Below, piece by piece: positions 32,884 to 43,682 of a stretch of DNA of 43,817 bases; within the stretch, counting starts at the first letter, position 1; each line of letters begins with the position of its first letter. The position numbers and the translations under genes were made by a program. Below the pieces are notes generated by a model that searched no databases, had not been told where the DNA came from, and worked only from the letters and a program-made list of their open reading frames with translations. This stretch comes from Bacteroidaceae bacterium (lineage in GTDB: Bacteria > Bacteroidota > Bacteroidia > Bacteroidales > Bacteroidaceae), in the NCBI GenBank assembly GCA_017471185.1, contig JAFUVZ010000074.1, positions 1-43,817 of the forward strand. The letters run 5' to 3'.

Positions 32884-34398
32884 TTATTTATTGAGTTGCA
32901 TCATTTCTTCAATATACTCCCTTGTATTGCTCAAGCGAGGAATCTTGTGCTGTCCACCCAGCTTTCCCTTTCCATCGAGCCAGTCATGGAACAGATTCTT
33001 GCGGGCAACAATCACCTCCAGCGGTTGCAGAGCCAGATCATTTTGACGCTTTGCCTCATAATCAGAATTAATCTCCTTTAAGGTGTCATCAAGTACCTTG
33101 GCGAAATGTTCCAGGCTATCAGGCATCTTGGCAAACTCGATAAGCCATTGGTGGCGGCATTTGGCATGCTTGTCCATAAACACGGGCGCCGCTGAATAAT
33201 CTAATACCAATGCGCCTGTCTCGGCGCAAGCCTTCGCAAGTCCTTTCTCCGCATTGTCAACAATCAGTTCCTCACCGAAAGCATTGATGAAATGCTTGGT
33301 GCGTCCTGTAATGATGATCTTATAAGGATCCTTACTGATGAACTTCACCGTGTCGCCGATCATATATCGCCACAACCCGGCAGAGGTAGAGATTACCATC
33401 GCATAGTTCTTTCCTAACTCAACTTCCCAGAGAGGCACAATCTTCGGATTGTCCTTACCGACCTCGTCAAGAGGTATGAATTCAAAGAAGATGCCATAAT
33501 CGATCATCAGCAACATGGCAGGGTCACTGAGGTCATTCTGTGTGGCGAAATAGCCTTCTGACGCGTTGTAGGTCTCCACATACATCATGTCAGACTTCTT
33601 GATTATCTGCTTGTATTGTTCGCGGTAGGGAGTGAAAGCCACACCACCATGAAAGAATACTTCCAGATTAGGCCATACCTGCTCTAAAGTATGCTTGCCC
33701 GTCTTGTCTAAGATGTGCTTGATGAGTACCAGCATCCAGGAAGGAACGCCTGAAAGACTCACTACATTCGTGCCTATCGTCTCATTGGCAATGGCCTCCA
33801 TTTTAGATTCAAAATGCTCCATCAGAGCTGTCTGTTTGGAAGGTACGCGAAGGTACATACCCACACTCGGCATATTCTCTATCAGGATGGCACTTAAGTC
33901 ACCTACCAGACTCTTGTTTGTAGCCAGGTTAGGAGCATGACTTCCACCCAGCACGAGGCTCTTTCCTGTGAAGAAACGGCTCTTGGAATTCATGTGGAGA
34001 TAAAGAGCTACAGCGTCCTTGCCTCCGCAGTAATGCGTGTCCTGTATGGAATCGCTGGTAACAGGGATGAATTTACTCTTGTCATTAGTGGTGCCGGAAG
34101 ATTTGGCGAACCATCTGGTCATGCCTGGCCAAAGCACATTTTCCTCACCCTGGCGAGCCCTTTCCACCCATGACTTCACTTCCTCGTATGTCTGTATAGG
34201 TACATGGGAGGCAAAACCGGCATAGTCCTTGATAGAGGCATAGTCATGCATCTTGCCCCATTCTGTTTGAGCAGCCTTATTGATGAGCCACTTCAGCACC
34301 TGCTCCTGCAGTTGCATAGCTTGGCTTGCATATTTTTCTATTCTACGATAGCGTGGAGCAAGATACACGCTATCCGCTACTTTAGTGATTAAGTCCAT
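32884..34398 (-). CDS. GH3-family acyl-acid amido synthetase-like protein
   Basis: From the ATG at 34398 the protein has about 504 residues. The adenylate-forming signature [15 protein letters not shown] (ATP loop) lies near residue 100, [10 protein letters not shown] near 296 and YMIGDTVKF near 345, matching the GH3 family. Plant members join amino acids to jasmonate or auxin. Bacteroidetes homologues are common but their acyl substrate is unknown. It is the first gene of the operon. The TTG at 34431 overlaps the promoter-like CAAAATTA and is not favoured. Confidence 0.9.
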
Positions 34399-34428
34399 TA
34401 ATTTGCTTAAATCTTGTTTTTTAATGTG

Positions 34429-34436
34429 CAAAATTA
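34429..34436 (-). promoter_or_regulatory. Possible minus-7 box of the GH3/cysS operon
   Basis: TAATTTTG on the minus strand matches TAnnTTTG, 31 bp upstream of the GH3 ATG at 34398. No TTTG at the standard distance is seen, so the call is weak. Confidence 0.45.
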
Positions 34437-34509
34437 ATCTTTTATCTTGGCATCTCTATCTTTTTTAAGTTTTTTTTCTAACTTTATATGCATAAAAAGG
34501 GAAATGGTC

Positions 34510-35175
34510 TTAAATACGAAGTCTGTATCCTTGTTCTGTTGTTTCAATTATAAGAGATTGGTCTTTAGATATCAATTCTCTTAATTTAGCTATATAATTA
34601 TATAAAGAGTGATAATTCATGACTGTACTATCCCATATTGATTCCAATTCTTTATGGGTAACTTCTTCATTCCTTTTTGAATACAACATCAACAAGATGG
34701 CAAACTCTGTCTTTGTCAGCCTTCTTATCACAAAGCCATTAAATTTCAGCTCTCTGTTTTCTGCATTTAATCTGAATTTGCCAATGGGTATGCTACAATC
34801 TATCGTTTGTTCTGGCGTAGCGTATCTCTCAGTATATGACAATAGATCATCCACTTCGAAAGGCTTTGAAAGAAAAGCGACCGCCCCCATTGCAAAAGCT
34901 CTTTGCTTTTCACTTCTCTCGATATGGGAAGATATGATGAGAATGGGAGTTTTGGGAAGTACCGCTCTTATTAATGGTATTTGTTCAATTCCATCAAATT
35001 TTCCCACAGCAATATCTAATAATATCAAATCGGGATTGAAGTCTTTAGCTGTTTTGTGGATAGATGTCAATGAGTTTTGGAAATGCACCTCATAGTCTTC
35101 ATCAGTCAATGCTTGAGTCATGATGTTTCCTAACAGCATGTCATCATCAACAATTAGTATCTTTGCTTTACCCAT
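34510..35175 (-). CDS. OmpR-type response regulator
   Basis: The 221-residue protein has a receiver domain (acidic pocket DDD at 10-12, phospho-acceptor Asp54 in LILLDIA, Lys104 in FLSKPFE) and a C-terminal winged-helix DNA-binding domain of the OmpR/PhoB group (about residues 125-221, ending ETTEQGYRLRI). It pairs with the histidine kinase 26 bp upstream on the same strand. The pair is divergent from the precursor and maturase genes, so it probably controls the RiPP locus. Its resemblance to Bacteroides RprY is only general. Confidence 0.93.
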   Translation of the reverse strand: MGKAKILIVDDDMLLGNIMTQALTDEDYEVHFQNSLTSIHKTAKDFNPDLILLDIAVGKFDGIEQIPLIRAVLPKTPILIISSHIERSEKQRAFAMGAVAFLSKPFEVDDLLSYTERYATPEQTIDCSIPIGKFRLNAENRELKFNGFVIRRLTKTEFAILLMLYSKRNEEVTHKELESIWDSTVMNYHSLYNYIAKLRELISKDQSLIIETTEQGYRLRI

Positions 35176-35201
35176 ATTTGATCCTCCTTAATTAGTTTGT
35201 A

Positions 35202-36566
35202 TTAGTTTGGGAACCAGCAAGTAAAAATACTCCCCTTGCCAGGCTCGCTTTCCACTGTGATTTTTCCTTCGTGAGCTTCCATGATGTACATAGAGAAAGC
35301 TAATCCCACGCCATAGCCTTCCCTTCGATATAGTTTTCCAAGCGGTACTTGAAAGAACTGCTCAAAGATTCTCTTTTGATATTTTCTTTCAATTCCCCAT
35401 CCGTCATCTACCACCTGCAACAAAGTCCATTCGTTATCTTTATTTATCCTAATGCAGATAGATACGCCGTCATCTGAATATTTCAGCGCATTCTCTATTA
35501 GGTTTCTGATTACATTTGTCACATATACACTATCCGCTTCAATCAACACCTTATCTGTATAAAATTTATGCGTGATTGCATGATTCTTTCCAGCGTATTG
35601 CGTCGCAACGCTTGTCTCGGCTTGATTTACCAATGATATTAAATCCACTTCTTGTTTGCGAAGGATAATTTGTTCCCTATCTTTTCGGGCTGTTACAAGC
35701 AAGGATTCAATGTCTGCCACCATATTGCGTGATTGCCTGATGCACTCATCCATATTTTCAATGGTTGTTGTGTCTGTTACTTTTTTCTTTGCCTGACTCA
35801 TCATGAATATCACGTTGTTCAGTGGAGCCTTCAAGTCATGCACGGTTCCATTCACGCTCGCTTCCCTTTGTTTGAATAGTTTGTCTTTCTTTTTGATGGT
35901 AATAATCAGGAAAACGACACAGCCCAATGCTATCAATACCAATAGAGCAGAAGCTATAATAAAAAGCATAGATTCCATGAGAAATTCTGATGACTTGACA
36001 TCGACTTTCACTTGTACAAACTGCAAGCCTTTTGTGCCTAAGGGAAACAATCTTGTTGTTCTGGTTCTGGCAGTTTCTTTGCGCAAGGTGCCTATGCTGT
36101 CTAATAACAACGTGTCTTTATCTAACCAGAGTATGCTGTATTTTGCCTTAATATTGCTTTCTGTTAGTCTGTCGTTAAGCAATGAGTCCACCCAATGCAG
36201 ATTGATAAAGTTCCCTTTAGCAATGAGATTGTCCGCCTGTACTTGAATCAGTGCATCCTTTGTATCCAATCCATATTTTTTCTTCATCATGTCATCAACC
36301 ATGATAGTATCTCCTTTCAGAGAAAGCCTCTCTTCTTCAGTCATCTCATCAGCATACTTTATTTTTATTCTTGTAAATTTCCTGTTACCCATATTAGACA
36401 TTCGTAAGTCCAGCTCTCGTGATAAGCTTGCTGAAACGTATTGCTCCAGCTTCTGCATGACTCCGTCTTTATAGTCTCTAAAAGCATGACTAATCCAAAG
36501 TAATTGCATTGCCATCAAGACAATGGCAGATAGAGTAACAATAGCTATTTGTTTTTTGTTATTCAT
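35202..36566 (-). CDS. Membrane sensor histidine kinase
   Basis: The 454-residue kinase has membrane helices near residues 7-25 and 199-223 with a periplasmic sensor of about 170 residues. The DHp domain carries His243 in TVHDLKAPLNN. The ATPase domain has the N-box NLIENALKYS, the G1-box VDDGWGIE and the G2-box GYGVGLAFSMY. The sensor is not a recognised PAS or Cache domain. The gene starts 150 bp from the first precursor, in the opposite direction. It may sense the exported peptide or envelope stress, which is inference. Confidence 0.93.
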   Translation of the reverse strand: MNNKKQIAIVTLSAIVLMAMQLLWISHAFRDYKDGVMQKLEQYVSASLSRELDLRMSNMGNRKFTRIKIKYADEMTEEERLSLKGDTIMVDDMMKKKYGLDTKDALIQVQADNLIAKGNFINLHWVDSLLNDRLTESNIKAKYSILWLDKDTLLLDSIGTLRKETARTRTTRLFPLGTKGLQFVQVKVDVKSSEFLMESMLFIIASALLVLIALGCVVFLIITIKKKDKLFKQREASVNGTVHDLKAPLNNVIFMMSQAKKKVTDTTTIENMDECIRQSRNMVADIESLLVTARKDREQIILRKQEVDLISLVNQAETSVATQYAGKNHAITHKFYTDKVLIEADSVYVTNVIRNLIENALKYSDDGVSICIRINKDNEWTLLQVVDDGWGIERKYQKRIFEQFFQVPLGKLYRREGYGVGLAFSMYIMEAHEGKITVESEPGKGSIFTCWFPN

Positions 36567-36587
36567 CCTCTATATTTTCCTTTTTTG

Positions 36588-36595
36588 CAAAAGTA
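36588..36595 (-). promoter_or_regulatory. Possible minus-7 box of the two-component operon
   Basis: TACTTTTG on the minus strand fits TAnnTTTG, 22 bp upstream of the kinase ATG. No TTTG at the standard spacing is present, as often seen for promoters that need an activator. Confidence 0.5.
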
Positions 36596-36716
36596 CTAAA
36601 AAAAACGATACTCATTATTTTTTTCGCAAAAATGGGTGTAACAAAATTAATTGAAAAGATTACTCGTTTATTACTTCGTTCTGTTTCTATTGTATTTTCT
36701 TTGTAAAAAATACAAA

Positions 36717-36839
36717 ATGGACATAAGGTTGTTAACATACGAGGAATTAAACCAGATAAAAGGTGGTTATTGGATTTGGGTTGATGGGGAATGGGTTTGG
36801 ATTGAAGATGATATTAAGAAATATCCATTATCAACTTAA
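36717..36839 (+). CDS. RiPP precursor peptide A, Trp-rich core
   Basis: This 40-residue peptide has the leader MDIRLLTYEELNQIKGG, a double-glycine leader of the GG-Bacteroidales type, followed by a 23-residue core beginning YWIWVDGEWVWIEDD. The core has four Trp arranged as WxW-x4-WxW and several acidic residues. A C39 peptidase should cleave after Gly-Gly. The ATG at 36717 is chosen because the in-frame TTG at 36651 would put a hydrophobic stretch before a standard leader. WVD and WIE resemble the aromatic-X-X motifs crosslinked by triceptide-type radical SAM enzymes, a speculative match. Its stop overlaps the first ATG of the next frame. Confidence 0.82.
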   Translation: MDIRLLTYEELNQIKGGYWIWVDGEWVWIEDDIKKYPLST

Positions 36840-36892
36840 TGGGACGAAGATTATTTAACATATTTTATTGTTTAACACTAAAACTATTAGTT

Positions 36893-37078
36893 ATGGATAA
36901 AATGAGTAAATTACCTCTTCCAATTAATGTGTTGGAATTAGAGTTAGGTGAGTTGTTTATTATTAAAGGTGGATTAACACCTGATTCAAGTGGCTTACTT
37001 TCTGGCATTGGTTGTGGGTGCGGTTGTAGCAATGGCACTGGTTGTGGCTGTGGTTGTAATTGTGAACCTTTAGAATAA
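36893..37078 (+). CDS. RiPP precursor peptide B, Cys-Gly repeat core
   Basis: From the ATG at 36893 the peptide has 61 residues: a leader of 27 ending LELGELFIIKGG and a 34-residue core. The core starts LTPDSSGLLSGIG, then has CGCGCSNGTGCGCGCNC and ends EPLE. Seven Cys alternate mainly with Gly, giving two mirrored CxCxC groups around SNGTG. This layout suits thioether or other Cys-derived crosslinks made by a radical SAM enzyme, or a metal-binding peptide. The upstream in-frame ATG at 36839 would add 18 residues (MGRRLFNIFYC...) before a standard leader, so the later start is preferred. Maturase and exporter lie downstream. Confidence 0.88.
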   Translation: MDKMSKLPLPINVLELELGELFIIKGGLTPDSSGLLSGIGCGCGCSNGTGCGCGCNCEPLE

Positions 37079-37137
37079 GGACTGCTCTGTATAATAGAAT
37101 TGTCATAGCCAGAAAACTAACAAATTATGTTTGTTAT

Positions 37138-37166
37138 TTACAGCCGCATTTATAATGCGGCTGTAA
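37138..37166 (+). terminator. Strong hairpin between precursor B and the maturase
   Basis: A perfect 13-bp stem, TTACAGCCGCATT (37138-37150) with AATGCGGCTGTAA (37154-37166) and a TAT loop, lies 14 bp before the maturase ATG. With only a weak T tail it would act as a leaky terminator or RNA-stabilising element, keeping precursor mRNA in excess over enzyme mRNA. Confidence 0.75.
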
Positions 37167-37179
37167 TAAAGTGTATTTT

Positions 37180-38493
37180 ATGAAAGAAAGTTTTTATAAT
37201 ATTTATGCTAAGCAACCTTATGGATGGACTATTTGTTATAATACACGTTTTTCATCGTTTGCCCTATTGCCTAAATTGGTTTATAAACTGATAACAAGTG
37301 GTAATATTGATAAGATTCCGCCTCAGTATATCGCACCTTTGGAAGCCTGTGGATGTTTGCTTAATGATAACATAGACGAATTCCAACAGCTTTTAGAAGA
37401 ACACGAAAAAGTAGTGTCTGCTGATAACTCTAATTTTGAGCTAACTTTATTACCCTCACTTGATTGTAACCTGAGATGTTGGTATTGTTTTGAGAACCAT
37501 GTAAAGGGAAGTCATCTAAGCTCCCAGACAATAAATAATATCTTGAAGTTAATTCACAACATTTGTAATAATAAAAAAATTGACCATATAAACATTGAAT
37601 TATTTGGAGGTGAACCTCTATTATATTTTGAAGAAGAATTATATCCATTATTAAAAGATATTGAAAATATAGCTGGTACATCTCATAAATCTGTTTCATT
37701 TTTCTTTGTAACAAACGCTACTTGCATTACTGAAGATATGATACCACTTTTCGCCAACCTTAAAGCAAAATTCCAAATATCAATTGACGGATATAAGGAT
37801 AAGCATAACAAAGTGAAGAAGGATATTAGAAGAAAAGACGAACCAACATACCAAAGAGTAATGGAGATAATACGTATGCTGACAAAGAGCTACCCTGAGT
37901 GTTATATAAACCTACGTATTAACTATGACAACAAAACTTTGATACATATAACTGAATTGCTACAAGATATCGAAGATATTGATCCGTCACAATTAGGTTT
38001 CCATTTAGAGCGCGTATGGCAAACAAAAGCAGACACTAATGTAACAATGAGTGTCAAGGATGCCATATTAATGATTTTAAGAAGTGGCTATACTGTTTCC
38101 TACATGAATTTTTCACGTAGGAGTTGTTCTTGCAAGACAAGCCGGATAAACCAAGCTGTCATATCCTATGACGGAAAAGTGTATAAATGCAGTGGAAGAG
38201 ATTTTACAAATGAGCTTCAAGAAGGGAAATTGACTGATGAAGGAACGATAGAGTGGCAAGAAGAGAAGCTGCAAAAGCGTTTGAACATCATTACATTCAG
38301 TGATCCACGGTGTAAAAAATGCAAAATGTTGCCTTTGTGTTGGGGGCCATGTAATCAAAAACTTCTTGAACACCCAGACCGCCATGAAAGCTATTGCCAG
38401 CTAAATAATTTGGAGATTTCTTTGGAAGATTATATCTTTGTAGAATTTAATAATGAACTGCTAAAACGAAAAATCTACCAAACAACAGAATGA
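37180..38493 (+). CDS. Radical SAM/SPASM peptide maturase
   Basis: From the ATG at 37180 the protein has 437 residues. The radical SAM core carries the cluster motif CNLRCWYC (Cys96, Cys100, Cys103), then ELFGGEPLLYF (the GGE motif that helps bind SAM) and FQISIDGYKDKHNK. An N-terminal stretch of about 90 residues could hold the leader-binding (RRE-like) region. The C-terminal SPASM/twitch part is Cys-rich: CSCKTSR, YKCSGRDF, then CKKCKMLPLCWGPC and a final YCQ, enough for two auxiliary [4Fe-4S] clusters. The GTG at 37171 is a less likely start. Adjacent Cys- and Trp-rich precursors indicate RiPP maturation, but the chemistry (thioether or C-C bond) is open. The stop overlaps the next start. 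Confidence 0.93.
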   Translation: MKESFYNIYAKQPYGWTICYNTRFSSFALLPKLVYKLITSGNIDKIPPQYIAPLEACGCLLNDNIDEFQQLLEEHEKVVSADNSNFELTLLPSLDCNLRCWYCFENHVKGSHLSSQTINNILKLIHNICNNKKIDHINIELFGGEPLLYFEEELYPLLKDIENIAGTSHKSVSFFFVTNATCITEDMIPLFANLKAKFQISIDGYKDKHNKVKKDIRRKDEPTYQRVMEIIRMLTKSYPECYINLRINYDNKTLIHITELLQDIEDIDPSQLGFHLERVWQTKADTNVTMSVKDAILMILRSGYTVSYMNFSRRSCSCKTSRINQAVISYDGKVYKCSGRDFTNELQEGKLTDEGTIEWQEEKLQKRLNIITFSDPRCKKCKMLPLCWGPCNQKLLEHPDRHESYCQLNNLEISLEDYIFVEFNNELLKRKIYQTTE

Positions 38494-40775
38494 ACATGAT
38501 GAAGCACAGATTCCAGATATGTTTGCTGTTGGTTATTATATCTATGAATGCCATGAGCCAAGTAACACTTAGTGGTATCGTGAGAAACAATAACAAAGAA
38601 GTACTTACTGCTGCAGTGGTTCAATTGCAGCAAGATACTACATTGGTTGCCATGACTATGACTAACCGTAAAGGCGAATATAATATTTCTGACATTACAA
38701 ATGGTGAGTACACGATAACTGTGACATGTTACGGATATCAGTCGAAGTTAGAGAAACTAAATATAACAGCAACTATACGCAAGGACTTTACCATGGAACA
38801 AGAAGCTCAGGTTATGCTTGAAGAGGTAACGGCTATTGCAGACATGAGTCAGGTAGTTCTGCCAAATGCTACGGGTACTGTTTATTACCTGTCAAACCAC
38901 GCTAAGAGTTTGAAGAATCCTTATGAGTCATTGCAAGAGATTCCACGACTGATTGTCATTCCGACAGAGAAGAAAGTCATGTTGGAAAATGGTTCATCTC
39001 CTTTAATCATGATAAATGGAAAACGATTCGGTGGGAGTATTGACAGTGTGGAACCTTCATTAGTGGAAGGAGTGGAACTCATAGAATCGCCATCGGCTCG
39101 ATATCTGAAAGAAGGCATAAGGAGTGTATTGAATATCAGGATGAAACGTCGGAAAGCGTCATATTACAATGCCAATATTACAGCCAAACAAATGCTTCCG
39201 GTGCTGTATGGTATTACTATGCCGTATTTTGAAACGGGAAACAATAAGATTTCTTTTAACGTTTCAGCACAGCATTTTTATTTCCACCATGATGATACTG
39301 ACTGGGAACAAAGGCAAAGCAACATTGGTTACTATAATAAGGAGAGTTCTGGTGACCAGCGTTACAATATGCAGAGCTATTATGCAGATATGAACCTGGA
39401 CTGGCTGGCTTCTGAGAATGACAATCTGGTGCTCAATGCTTCCATTATTTACTCACCCAGCAAAACAGTCAAGACTGGCACGGGTTTTCTCTCATCTGAG
39501 GGCAACTATGCCATGCAAGATGTTGACAAAGGTGACTATTTCGTAAACTCATATAATTTGTACTATAGACATGTTTTCTCAAAGAAAACGATGTTGGAGG
39601 CTACGGGGCATTTCAACCTTAATGGCAATAACACAAAGGGGCAACGTGCGGAATTATACGATGATTGGAACTATGATTTCCTTTACGACTTCGACAACTT
39701 CCGTTATTCCGGCGGTCTTGAACTTGACTTTGCAACCAAGGTGGGAACACAGTCGCTTGAACTTGGAAGTCATCTGACTTTCACCAAAGATCGTGTTGAG
39801 CAGACAGCAGTTGATAATCCGATATTCCATCATAGGAATTGGAATGAGTATCTGTATTGTAATCTGAGTGGGAATATTTCAAAAAAGCTGTCCTATGCTT
39901 TATCTATAGGTTTGGATGTGATGAACCGCAAGGTCGCTGATAAATACTTTAACTACGTGCGCCCTGTCGAGATGGCCTCTTTGAACTATCGAATCAATCA
40001 GTCAAGCTCTGTTGATGTGAGATATAATCTCGAAAACGTGTCACCTAATGTGGCTCAGCTCAATCCTTACAACACTTCAACAGACTCTCTGGAAATTGTT
40101 TCGGGTAATCCATATCTGTTGCCCTCACGCCACTACAATTGGGTCATGCGATACCGGTATAATAAGAATGGATGGAATCTTCAGCCGTCAGTATCCTATC
40201 ATCTATATACAGACAATATTAACAGGGTGGGAAACACTGACCCTGTCACATCCATTTATACCAATACTTACATGAATTACGACAAGTATCGTAGGCTTGT
40301 TGCATCAGTTAACATAGGATATCGTAGTAACAAGTGGGGAGGGATATCGTTGACTGTCAGTAATAGCACAGACTTTTACGAGGGACAATCTGGGAAGAAC
40401 TATTTCTCGCTGACCTCTAACTTCTATGGGTGGAAAAAGAAATGGTCGTGGAACGGCTACATAAATTACTTTCCCAAGATATATAGTATAAATTCTTTGA
40501 CCAAATCAAAGGGAGCTGAATCTGAGTTCACTATTACTTATCGAGCCAGCAATATCATATCTTTAAATGCCGGTATGAGATACTTCCTGGGTAAGCTTCA
40601 AAGTAAGACATTCATGAAGGATGGCGCTTATGAGAATTACAATCGGTTGATTAATAAAGACCGTGCTTATAGAGTACTTTTGGGCTTGAGTATATACATA
40701 AACAAGAATAAAAATGTGCCGTTTAGGCAAAAAAAACAGCTTAACAGCACAGAGGAGGGTATCACTATCAAGTAA
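38490..40775 (+). CDS. Outer-membrane beta-barrel (TonB-receptor-like, PF14905-type)
   Basis: The 761-residue protein starts with a signal peptide (FQICLLLVIISMNAMSQ). A carboxypeptidase-regulatory-like domain follows (VTLSGIVRNNNKEVLTAAVV..., about residues 24-105), then a plug-like region (SLQEIPRLIVIPTEKKV, PLIMINGKRFGG) and a long barrel with aromatic beta-strands. The block NVSPNVAQLNPYNTSTDSLEIVSGNPYLLPS is the usual one in outer-membrane beta-barrel (OMP_b-brl_3) proteins. No obvious TonB box is visible. Overlapping the maturase stop and placed before the exporter, it may pass the peptide across the outer membrane or act as a receptor or immunity-linked sensor. Confidence 0.87.
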   Translation: MNMMKHRFQICLLLVIISMNAMSQVTLSGIVRNNNKEVLTAAVVQLQQDTTLVAMTMTNRKGEYNISDITNGEYTITVTCYGYQSKLEKLNITATIRKDFTMEQEAQVMLEEVTAIADMSQVVLPNATGTVYYLSNHAKSLKNPYESLQEIPRLIVIPTEKKVMLENGSSPLIMINGKRFGGSIDSVEPSLVEGVELIESPSARYLKEGIRSVLNIRMKRRKASYYNANITAKQMLPVLYGITMPYFETGNNKISFNVSAQHFYFHHDDTDWEQRQSNIGYYNKESSGDQRYNMQSYYADMNLDWLASENDNLVLNASIIYSPSKTVKTGTGFLSSEGNYAMQDVDKGDYFVNSYNLYYRHVFSKKTMLEATGHFNLNGNNTKGQRAELYDDWNYDFLYDFDNFRYSGGLELDFATKVGTQSLELGSHLTFTKDRVEQTAVDNPIFHHRNWNEYLYCNLSGNISKKLSYALSIGLDVMNRKVADKYFNYVRPVEMASLNYRINQSSSVDVRYNLENVSPNVAQLNPYNTSTDSLEIVSGNPYLLPSRHYNWVMRYRYNKNGWNLQPSVSYHLYTDNINRVGNTDPVTSIYTNTYMNYDKYRRLVASVNIGYRSNKWGGISLTVSNSTDFYEGQSGKNYFSLTSNFYGWKKKWSWNGYINYFPKIYSINSLTKSKGAESEFTITYRASNIISLNAGMRYFLGKLQSKTFMKDGAYENYNRLINKDRAYRVLLGLSIYINKNKNVPFRQKKQLNSTEEGITIK

Positions 40776-40784
40776 AGTCCGCCA

Positions 40785-42965
40785 ATGTTTCCTTTCATTA
40801 GACAACATGACACTATGCAGTGTGGAGTAGCTTGCTTGCAAATGGTATGCAGATTTTACGGGAAGAGTTATTCATCTGCTTTCCTGTCTGATTATTGCCA
40901 CGCTTCTGTTGATGGTGTATCACTGCTTGGAATCAAAGAAGCTGCTGAAAAGTTGGGACTACAAACAATATGTGGTAAAACAACTTTAAAGCAACTTACC
41001 TCGGCATCATTGCCCTGCATCCTTCACTGGAATCAGAACCATTTTGTGGTATTGTATAAAGTTAAAAGAGGGAATAGGTTCTATGTGGCAGATCCAGGAA
41101 AAGGTAAAATATGTTATCGTGAGAAAGAATTTAAAAGCTGTTGGATTAGCAGCTCTGGTAATGGTACAGAAAGAGGGGTGGCTATGTTCTTGTGTCCTGC
41201 AGAAGCGTTTTATGAACAATTAGATGACAATATAGGAGAGAAACACTCTTTAAGATTTCTTGGGAAATATGCCAAACAATATCACAGTAGTATTGTGAAA
41301 GTTGTAATAGCTGCTGTCTTAGGGAGTTTGCTACAATTGGTATTCCCATTCTTGACTCAAGTCGTAGTTGACGTTGGTATAGAACAGAAAAACTTGAATA
41401 TCATCCTCCTGATACTACTTGGACAACTTATGCTCACCATTTCCAAAGCCTGTGCTGATTTTTTTAGACGTAGAGTTTTGTTACGTATAGGTACGCAAAT
41501 CAATATCTCATTAGTATCAGACTTCTTGATCAAGTTGCTTAAACTGCCCATGTATTTCTTTGATACCAAACTTACGGGAGATCTGTTGCAGCGTATGAAT
41601 GACCATAAACGTTTGGAGACATTTCTGACCAAGCATCTCATTAATTTAACTTTTTCATTGTTGACTTTTATCATCTTTGGGGTAGTGCTGCTTAGCTATA
41701 ATCTGTTTATCATATCCATATTTGTTGTCGGAAGTATTGTATATGCTGTATGGACTGTATGGTTTCTTGAAAGGCGCAAAGTGCTTGATTATATGCTGTT
41801 CGAAAAGGAAGCACAAAACAGCAATAAAACCTATCAGTTTGTTACAGCCATGCAGGAAATTAAGCTTCAAGATTGTGAACAGCGTAGAAGAAACGAATGG
41901 GAAAAGATACAAACGGATTTGTTGGACATTAAGATTAAGACTTTGAACCTGTCTCAAACTCAAGAGGCAGGGGCTATTCTCATTAACGAAACTAAAAACA
42001 TTTTGATTACCATCATTGCTGCAATGCTCGTAATAAAAGGAAGTATAACGCTTGGCATGATGCTTGCTATTCAATATATATTAGGACAACTTAATGCTCC
42101 TTTAGACCAGCTCATGAATTTCATCTATAACATGCAGGATGTGAATATAAGTCTGGAACGTATCAATGAGATTCGAGACAGAACAGAGGAGGAACAACCA
42201 GGTGGCAAAACAGCTTTTTCTAATGATAGCACTTTGCGTTTCAATCATGTTAGTTTCAAGTATGATCCTCACAGCCCTTATAAAACACTTGATGACATTT
42301 GTATTGAAATCCCCAAAGGTAAGGTTACTGCTATTGTAGGGGCAAGTGGAAGCGGAAAGACCACTATATTGAAGCTGATGCTGGGGTTTTATCAAGTTAA
42401 TGAGGGTACAATTTTAATAGGAGAGACTCCGATACAAGATTATAGCATGAAATGGTGGCGAAGGCAATGTGGGGTAGTAATGCAAGAAGGAGTGATATTC
42501 TCTGAAAGTATAGCTCGTAACATTGCCGTTGATGACTATAAAATTGATAATGAAAGGCTTTTGCACGCTGCCCATATAGCTTGTGTATATGACTTTGTAG
42601 AATCATTGCCCTTGAAATACAATACTGTCATTGGGAGGGATGGCTTGGGGTTAAGTCTGGGACAGAAACAACGTATTCTCATAGCGCGTGCTGTATATAA
42701 GTATCCCCAGTACATATTCTTAGATGAAGCCACAAACTCTCTTGATGCCAATAATGAGCGTGCTATTGTAGAGAGACTAACTGATTTCTATAAAGGGAAA
42801 ACTGTAGTTGTAGTTGCTCATAGGCTTAGTACTGTCAGGAATGCAGATCAGATTATTGTTTTGGAAAAAGGTAAGATTGTAGAGCAAGGTTGTCATAATG
42901 ATTTAATATCATGCAAAGGAGCATATTATAATTTGGTGAAGAACCAGTTAGAGTTGGGCAATTAA
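40785..42965 (+). CDS. Peptidase C39 domain-containing ABC exporter
   Basis: The 726-residue protein combines three domains. Residues 1-140 form a C39 peptidase with Gln7, Cys13 (TMQCGVACLQMVC), His86 (NQNHFVVLYK) and Asp103 (VADPGKG), the site for cleaving Gly-Gly leaders. About residues 160-440 are six membrane helices. The rest is an ABC ATPase with Walker A GASGSGKTT, signature LSLGQKQR (a variant of LSGGQ), Walker B YIFLDEAT and the His switch AHR. It processes and exports the two precursors from the cytoplasm. It starts nine bp after the barrel gene. No HlyD-type fusion protein follows; the operon ends near insertion-sequence remnants. Confidence 0.95.
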   Translation: MFPFIRQHDTMQCGVACLQMVCRFYGKSYSSAFLSDYCHASVDGVSLLGIKEAAEKLGLQTICGKTTLKQLTSASLPCILHWNQNHFVVLYKVKRGNRFYVADPGKGKICYREKEFKSCWISSSGNGTERGVAMFLCPAEAFYEQLDDNIGEKHSLRFLGKYAKQYHSSIVKVVIAAVLGSLLQLVFPFLTQVVVDVGIEQKNLNIILLILLGQLMLTISKACADFFRRRVLLRIGTQINISLVSDFLIKLLKLPMYFFDTKLTGDLLQRMNDHKRLETFLTKHLINLTFSLLTFIIFGVVLLSYNLFIISIFVVGSIVYAVWTVWFLERRKVLDYMLFEKEAQNSNKTYQFVTAMQEIKLQDCEQRRRNEWEKIQTDLLDIKIKTLNLSQTQEAGAILINETKNILITIIAAMLVIKGSITLGMMLAIQYILGQLNAPLDQLMNFIYNMQDVNISLERINEIRDRTEEEQPGGKTAFSNDSTLRFNHVSFKYDPHSPYKTLDDICIEIPKGKVTAIVGASGSGKTTILKLMLGFYQVNEGTILIGETPIQDYSMKWWRRQCGVVMQEGVIFSESIARNIAVDDYKIDNERLLHAAHIACVYDFVESLPLKYNTVIGRDGLGLSLGQKQRILIARAVYKYPQYIFLDEATNSLDANNERAIVERLTDFYKGKTVVVVAHRLSTVRNADQIIVLEKGKIVEQGCHNDLISCKGAYYNLVKNQLELGN

Positions 42966-43334
42966 TTTTGAAATATTTTAGCAGTTGGCTTGACATTCAC
43001 TCGTACTTACAATTACTTAAGGGATGACCACTTTGCGGTCAAATGCTATATCATCGTCAAGATTGGCTTAAGTTGGGGGAAAAACGTCTGCTTAAAAAGA
43101 AGTCTTAATTCTTCATAAACCGCTCTTAACATGCTGTTTCCCTTTATATTAACAGCATGAAATCCTGCTTCAGGTCTTCATAACTCTTCATAGGTCTTCA
43201 CACTTTATCTTCGCCAGTTTTGGTGAATAGGCGCGAAAAGGTATGAAGAGGAAAAATGCCAATTCATACTAGTAACTCACTGTTACATTGCGTATTACAA
43301 CCTATTTCCTGTTTTTCTGAATGAGACACCCAAA
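42966..43334. other. Gene-free stretch with CTTCAT repeats
   Basis: No gene or clear terminator is seen between the exporter and the transposase relic. It holds a weak TGACC/GGTCA hairpin near 43024-43040. It also has TCTTCA repeats at 43110, 43175, 43185 and 43195 (the last three 10 bp apart), with an inverted TATGAAGA at 43242-43249. Confidence 0.6.
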
Positions 43335-43682
43335 TCAGTTTTGAGCAATATCTACCAGTAACCTTTGTTCATCAGTCATCTGTAGTAATGTGGTTCTTTC
43401 TTCCTTTGTCTCTGGAAGTGTGTAAGTTATTGAATATATATTCTTGGTCAACTCCCTTGCTTAGTTGAGAGATAAATGCGTATTTGCCTCTTTTAACCTC
43501 CGCTCCAACTCAAGCATGACGGTATATGCTGTGAAACAGATACAGATATGTCCCTCTATACGATTTCGGAGTCTGTGATAAATGGGTCTTATGCGTAAAT
43601 CCGTTTTGTTCATTCGAAATGCTCGTTCAATGAACCACAGATTATGATAGTTCGCTACAATCCTCCTGACTTCGGTGATGCG
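43335..43682 (-). pseudogene. Relic of an IS1634-family transposase (C-terminal third)
   Basis: Reading the minus strand, 73 codons open after a stop at 43683-43685. They encode NYHNLWFIERAFRMNKTD followed by RIRPIYHRLRNRIEGHICIC, the conserved C-terminal block of IS1634/IS4-group transposases. A single in-frame TAA at 43461-43463, likely once AAA, interrupts it. The same frame then continues for 41 codons as AREL TKNIYSITYTLPET... MTDEQRLLVDIAQN before the true stop at 43335. The N-terminal two thirds are absent. The match is from memory of the family. Confidence 0.82.

Follow-up and report, generated by a model that had tools for sequence, protein, structure and literature searches.

A kinase-linked, tryptophan-rich GG peptide as a candidate autoinducer of exchangeable RiPP modules in Bacteroidaceae

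Introduction

In pneumococcus, GG peptides leave the cell through C39-ABC exporters, and some are described as signalling via a kinase from the same locus (PMC7595303). In the Bacteroidales RiPP clusters BGC1-9, as presented by Fernandez-Cantos et al. 2023 (PMC10352776), GG precursors occur together with a C39 exporter and a radical SAM enzyme, four of the nine clusters have an outer-membrane protein but lack an adaptor, and signalling by the mature peptides is proposed in the Discussion of that work. Sections 3.2 and 4 of the same paper include no kinase-linked Trp-rich peptide, and none of the titles and abstract openings found by full-text search of an open-access library dealt with kinase-linked Trp-rich GG peptides.

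The locus described here lies in a stretch of 43,817 nucleotides from a Bacteroidaceae bacterium (the window), which is contig 49 of a draft genome of 2.76 Mb in 85 contigs. Like BGC1-9, it has GG precursors, a C39 exporter, a radical SAM enzyme and an outer-membrane protein and, like ComC-ComDE and BlpC-BlpHR, it has a short GG peptide, a C39 exporter, a kinase and a regulator beside bacteriocin-type genes. By contrast with the Gram-positive GG-pheromone systems, the host is Gram-negative and the peptide is Trp-rich and putatively hairpin-like. ComD and BlpH are polytopic and ComE and BlpR have LytTR domains, whereas the window kinase is of a two-TM type (two hydrophobic segments) with a periplasmic domain, and the window regulator is a winged-helix protein (Trans_reg_C).

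Results

The features of the locus are as follows.

34510-35175, minus strand: response regulator (RR), receiver plus winged-helix Trans_reg_C (Pfam Response_reg, Trans_reg_C)
35202-36566, minus strand: sensor histidine kinase (HK; Pfam HATPase_c, motifs, hydropathy)
36567-36716, no strand: divergent control region, with ATTAC at 36659 and 36670 (11 bp apart), putative regulator boxes
36717-36839, plus strand: P1, 17-aa GG leader and 23-aa Trp-rich core (homologues, alignment), proposed autoinducer
36893-37078, plus strand: P2, a GG leader followed by a 34-aa core containing 7 Cys; candidate RiPP product
37180-38493, plus strand: radical SAM/SPASM peptide maturase (rSAM; Pfam, NCBIfam, motifs)
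38490-40775, plus strand: outer-membrane barrel (Pfam CarboxypepD_reg and OMP_b-brl_3)
40785-42965, plus strand: C39-ABC exporter (Pfam Peptidase_C39 and ABC, motifs)
43461-43613, minus strand: IS1634-type transposase fragment, bounding the locus (tblastn)

An earlier note on this DNA had described a RiPP locus that carries two-component genes of its own, a reading that is supported; gene order, strands and coordinates are correct. The maturase and barrel genes overlap by 4 bp, and a 9-bp gap separates barrel and exporter. P2 begins 53 bp after the end of P1, the start of which was taken as the ATG at 36717 because the homologues start at a similar leader position. Hydropathy places hydrophobic segments of the kinase near residues 5-27 and 193-228, which would enclose a periplasmic domain of ~165 residues; HDLKAPL and the N, D and G boxes are present, and the exporter has the C39 QCG motif together with Walker motifs. 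No adaptor gene was found in the window's locus. GC content is 33-41% across nine 1-kb intervals from 34001 to 43000 and mostly 43-53% in the 1-kb intervals to the left, two of which are under 40%, so that the AT-richness relative to the left neighbours, as noted before, holds for most of them. The transposase remnant reported at the locus end also stands: the segment is similar to the terminal part of a transposase of IS1634 type, its best two tblastn places being 58% and 56% identical and the second being annotated as an IS1634 family transposase; it has no Pfam match.

With the maturase as bait against genome contigs, 15 stretches matched the pattern and three encoded relatives. The recurrence of the set, which the earlier note had proposed to look for, was found in full, in the same order, in a Bacteroidaceae MAG from goat omasum (L001; goat rumen), and in part in Phocaeicola sartorii (L002), where RR, HK, P1, P2, maturase and barrel are present and the exporter lies across RR, together with a second cassette. 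Because the same order recurs in L001 and, minus the exporter, in L002, the gene set is more than a chance assembly. Identities of the window proteins to those of L001 and L002, respectively, are 57 and 53% for the maturase, 48 and 47% for HK, 51 and 40% for the barrel, and 65 and 66% for the exporter. In a sample of 393 genomes of the order, four match the maturase at E<=1e-60, and a four-row maturase profile matches 43 of 399 family genomes at E<=1e-40 (window included in both counts).

In P. sartorii (L002 2749-11562 and L069 4045-11001) a single RR/HK pair lies between two RiPP cassettes. The one on the RR side comprises a barrel, a Cys GG peptide, a second maturase and the exporter; the one on the HK side comprises P1, P2, maturase and barrel. 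A MAG from goat reticulum (L003 7986-11206) contains a broken remnant of the closest maturase (69%) plus barrel, with P1, P2, HK and exporter absent nearby.

A profile of three P1 sequences, run against 399 family genomes, had four matches at E<1e-4 other than the window (G478, G766, G449 and G688) as well as 14 weak ones; all four of the former lie divergently beside an HK gene, and the genes behind them differ. Once enlarged by these four (seven rows), the profile found six places in 61 genomes of one genus and 16 in 158 of the window's genus. As in ComCDE and BlpCHR, where a short GG peptide lies beside its own kinase and regulator, a divergent two-component gene adjoins P1 at 20 of these 22 places (two genera, window included), or at 13 of 15 when the seven rows of the profile itself are set aside. 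The independent cases are fewer than 22, since G859 is the genome of L001 and the peptides of G831, G792 and G794 are the same as those of G834, G688 and L002, respectively; the P1s of G867 and G885 are degenerate forms. The exceptions to the kinase neighbour are a leader-only match (G898) and the second P1 copy in G866. The P1 places stand before different maturases or where none was seen.

The corresponding control, 31 maturase-bait loci (L006-L008 and L013-L040) with flanks of ~1.5 kb or less, had a similar HK in no case, with the window, known positives, a remnant, a paralogue and duplicates (L001-L005, L009-L012) left out, the G766:C202 maturase, which has P1 and HK, not among the loci, and the HK and RR (L118) of G583 (L025) located ~3 kb from the maturase and thus beyond the flank. 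A similar HK adjoins one of the 14 weak P1 matches; the G860 kinase falls under the similar-HK cut-off of this test, yet is visible in its locus. P1 goes with HK/RR rather than with the maturase. It marks part of this kinase family: a sensor profile of the window kinase has P1 beside only four of its 15 matches in 399 genomes, and the RiPP cluster of G583 has a related HK and RR and no recognisable P1. The sensor profile has no sequence match in the PDB at E<=1. Outside the family, no convincing P1 was found in a phylum sample of 184 genomes, four of which gave matches with E of 0.003-0.01.

The earlier note had inferred one or two modified peptides; a reading of both as modified products is not supported for P1, which tracks the kinase and not the maturase and is retained in G846, where no maturase was found; P1 is therefore better read as a signal. 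Divergence of P1 correlates with that of HK over 14 loci, with r=0.58 for the sensor half and 0.59 for the kinase half, as shared descent alone would give, and sensor-specific coevolution was dropped because the kinase half correlates equally.

The P1 core of the window is YWIWVDGEWVWIEDD... and has four weak NCBIfam matches (E 0.003-0.04), including the pheromone BlpC and the bacteriocin leader model (14.9 bits, cut-off 15.7), and a weak Pfam match to ComC. The leaders had been assigned previously to GG-Bacteroidales, an NCBI leader-peptide model; neither P1 nor P2 matched such an NCBIfam model at E<=0.1.

Alignment of 16 P1s shows one invariant Gly of the GG site, an invariant Trp in the second strand and cores of 16 to 32 residues. 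The strand spacing is seven residues in 14 of the 16, with a longer loop in G866 and G860, which a looser quartet test places in an off register, the actual loop being two residues longer. Aromatic residues at i, i+2, i+7 and i+9 form a full quartet in nine of the 16 cores, including that of the window; shuffled cores averaged 0.15 and reached at most three of 16 in 5000 rounds, a descriptive comparison given that the P1s are related. The segments concerned are, for example, WIWVDGEWVW in the window, WVYINGEWYY in G846 and FVYIGNKWVW in G861. In the designed peptides trpzip2 (SWTWENGKWTWK; PMC2705519) and trpzip1 (SWTWEGNKWTWK; PMC9049704), as their sequences are given there, aromatics likewise occur at i, i+2, i+7 and i+9 about a two-residue turn. 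By contrast with the designed peptides, P1 is genome-encoded with a GG leader, often has Tyr or Phe instead of Trp, and in many cases has an acidic tail; the comparison is of spacing alone, the P1 hairpin being putative. Mature P1 would probably be a hairpin of the tryptophan-zipper kind.

Direct repeats with an 11-bp period occur between the operons at 17 P1 loci (in L001, GATTACCAAAA GATTACGTTTT GATTACAAATA), a period that would suit tandem binding by an OmpR-type regulator. Repeats in the control region would be a possible further likeness to ComC-ComDE and BlpC-BlpHR, significant here over the 17 loci jointly: at lag 11 the best match averages 13.53 of 22 vs 11.36 (sd 0.36) for shuffles, none of 400 of which reached it, and lags 9, 10, 12 and 13 have no excess over shuffles. 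Taken singly, six of the 17 loci have p<0.05 at lag 11, the window giving p=0.41. Nine control kinase regions average 13.67 at the same lag; these are eight sensor-matched kinases without recognised P1 and one from G885 (L117, score 10), which has a degenerate P1 core alongside, L083 having been left out as it yielded no kinase ORF. The repeats were accordingly dropped as a mark of P1 loci and, because kinases without P1 also have them, are ascribed to the regulator family.

The maturase matches Pfam Radical_SAM (PF04055) at 59.9 bits (cut-off 29.5) and has CNLRCWYC as its CX3CX2C motif; its SPASM match (PF13186, 18.8 bits) is below the cut-off of 21.5, and the C-terminal cysteines are present (CKKCKMLPLCWGPC) and conserved in four relatives. 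By score, its nearest named NCBIfam families are maturases of Cys-rich peptides, i.e. CefB (NF038107, 123 bits, cut-off 600), geopeptide (TIGR04280, 112, cut-off 400), TIGR04463 (111, cut-off 525) and PapB (NF047865, 97, cut-off 340), the partner peptides of which are Cys-rich by family name. However, the window maturase scores far below the curated cut-offs and reaches no named family (best four scores 123, 112, 111 and 101 vs 600, 400, 525 and 600). NCBIfam cut-offs were reached neither by it nor by the six relatives scanned, among which the G449 maturase had no NCBIfam match at E<=1e-20. A PDB search with the maturase profile gave five matches, the best being 5wgg (E 2e-16), the thioether-forming CteB.

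No NCBIfam or Pfam family matched P2 which, as in thioether sacti- and ranthi-peptide systems, is a Cys-rich precursor beside a maturase. Cys peptides of the P2 type go with the maturase: a Cys-bearing GG peptide is near the enzyme in 25 of the 31 maturase-bait loci (L006-L008, L013-L040), the ORF filter having shown none in L019, L020, L022, L035, L037 and L039. Six loci are intact and encode a maturase that shares at least 44% identity with the window's (window, L001, L002, G258, G619 and G592). All six have a CxC peptide, and three of them (window, L001 and L002) have HK, RR and P1; G258, G619 and G592 are without HK, RR and P1, yet keep the Cys peptide. Given this linkage, the nearest families and the best PDB match, P2 is the likeliest substrate of the maturase, with a thioether as the likeliest chemistry.

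The system occupies one chromosomal site in three genomes of the window's genus, G939, G846 and G829 (L107, L108 and L111), where a flanking 548-aa protein is 93-98% identical. P1, HK/RR and the exporter look like a constant part (HK 57-77%, RR 68-89%, exporter 73-80% and P1 37-65% identical), and P2, maturase and barrel like an exchanged one: the barrels are 24-26% and the P2s 18-25% identical, against ~14% for shuffled P2 (one pair), and G939 and G829 share 28% identity in their maturases. BLAST of the G846 ORFs against the window and G449 maturases found no maturase in 19.5 kb. That the barrel changes together with the cargo in these three genomes, all at a single site, suggests a role for it in handling the product.

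A cargo candidate in G846 is a GG peptide of Thr repeats with zero cysteine (L108 9257-9430). A protein of 153-160 aa follows the C39 exporter in four loci (L107 3376-3855, L108 4103-4585, L130 2718-3191 and L011 12824-13285), with HlyD_3 scores above the cut-off in one of the four and below it in another, and in L001 a 71-aa ORF after the exporter has a similar start, whereas the window's exporter has no such ORF behind it; the 153-160-aa protein could be the adaptor thought to be missing from such clusters.

Discussion

On balance it is probable, if by no means firmly so, that P1, once exported, acts as the autoinducer in a three-component switch controlling a RiPP module that can be exchanged, and that the product is P2. 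The exporter would cut P1 after GG, releasing a short peptide that the periplasmic domain of the divergent kinase would sense; the kinase would activate the OmpR-type regulator, which may bind the 11-bp direct repeats between the operons (putative boxes) and drive P1-P2-maturase-barrel-exporter, giving positive feedback. The SPASM enzyme would crosslink P2 at its cysteines, most likely as thioethers, the same exporter would remove the P2 leader, and the barrel, which varies with the cargo, may serve the P2 product at the outer membrane. A wider proposal, which we hold tentatively, is that the P1s are a family of natural Bacteroidaceae tryptophan-zipper pheromones, sensed by two-TM kinases and forming with the C39 exporter a constant chassis for exchanged peptide-making modules; with equal caution, these modules would include radical SAM types, weakly LanC-like ones and ones in which no maturase was seen.

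Other roles for P1 have been weighed against that of an exported signal. It may be that the exporter simply takes P1 as far as the periplasm, for the cell's own kinase to read as evidence of working export; the sensor is periplasmic by hydropathy, and the window's locus has no adaptor gene, so P1 may stay periplasmic. Such a private checkpoint is rather unlikely; with one of the four 153-160-aa proteins after the exporter above the HlyD_3 cut-off, some relatives may have an adaptor. A small unmodified antimicrobial would likewise be short, Trp-rich and GG-led, and could either be self-sensed, as nisin is, or be accompanied by a kinase answering envelope stress; in G861, G939 (second place) and G527, P1 is accompanied by further GG peptides but by no detected maturase. 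However, its place beside HK/RR is kept while the other peptides of the cluster change, which makes this role distinctly improbable.

The arrangement of two GG peptides and one maturase in one apparent operon might also point to a two-peptide RiPP, both P1 and P2 being maturase substrates and P1 being crosslinked at Trp/Tyr, and aromatic-crosslinking SPASM enzymes are among the weaker NCBIfam matches. This is the least probable of the alternatives, since three loci of the same clade have the maturase but lack P1, the P1 motif is kept beside maturases just 26-30% identical to that of the window, and P1 is present in G846, which showed no maturase. The substrate reading was given up as the preferred one because P1 follows the kinase past different maturases and into G846.

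As an exported autoinducer, P1 would give peptide clusters of gut Bacteroidaceae that are otherwise silent a candidate signal that is concrete and can be synthesized, rendering peptide quorum sensing in Bacteroides directly testable, and further clusters could be sought by way of Trp-rich GG peptides encoded divergently from a kinase. The tryptophan-zipper hairpin is known mainly from design; the P1s, if the assignment is true, would be its natural relatives.

Other P1-like peptides were observed in different settings. The window's own genome has a second, frameshifted one of the G866/G860 type (G000:C83, L128 2327-2465), located between lipoprotein-like genes and with no kinase nearby within the 12 kb examined. 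In G866 and G860 (L109, L112), the longer-loop P1-like peptides adjoin RR-HK in reversed order and stand at the head of clusters that contain Cys GG peptides and ~400-aa proteins. In G688 and G527 (L068, L115), a P1-like peptide and HK are accompanied by several GG peptides that look unmodified; with resolvase- and ParA-like genes nearby, the whole is perhaps, as judged by eye, a mobile element.
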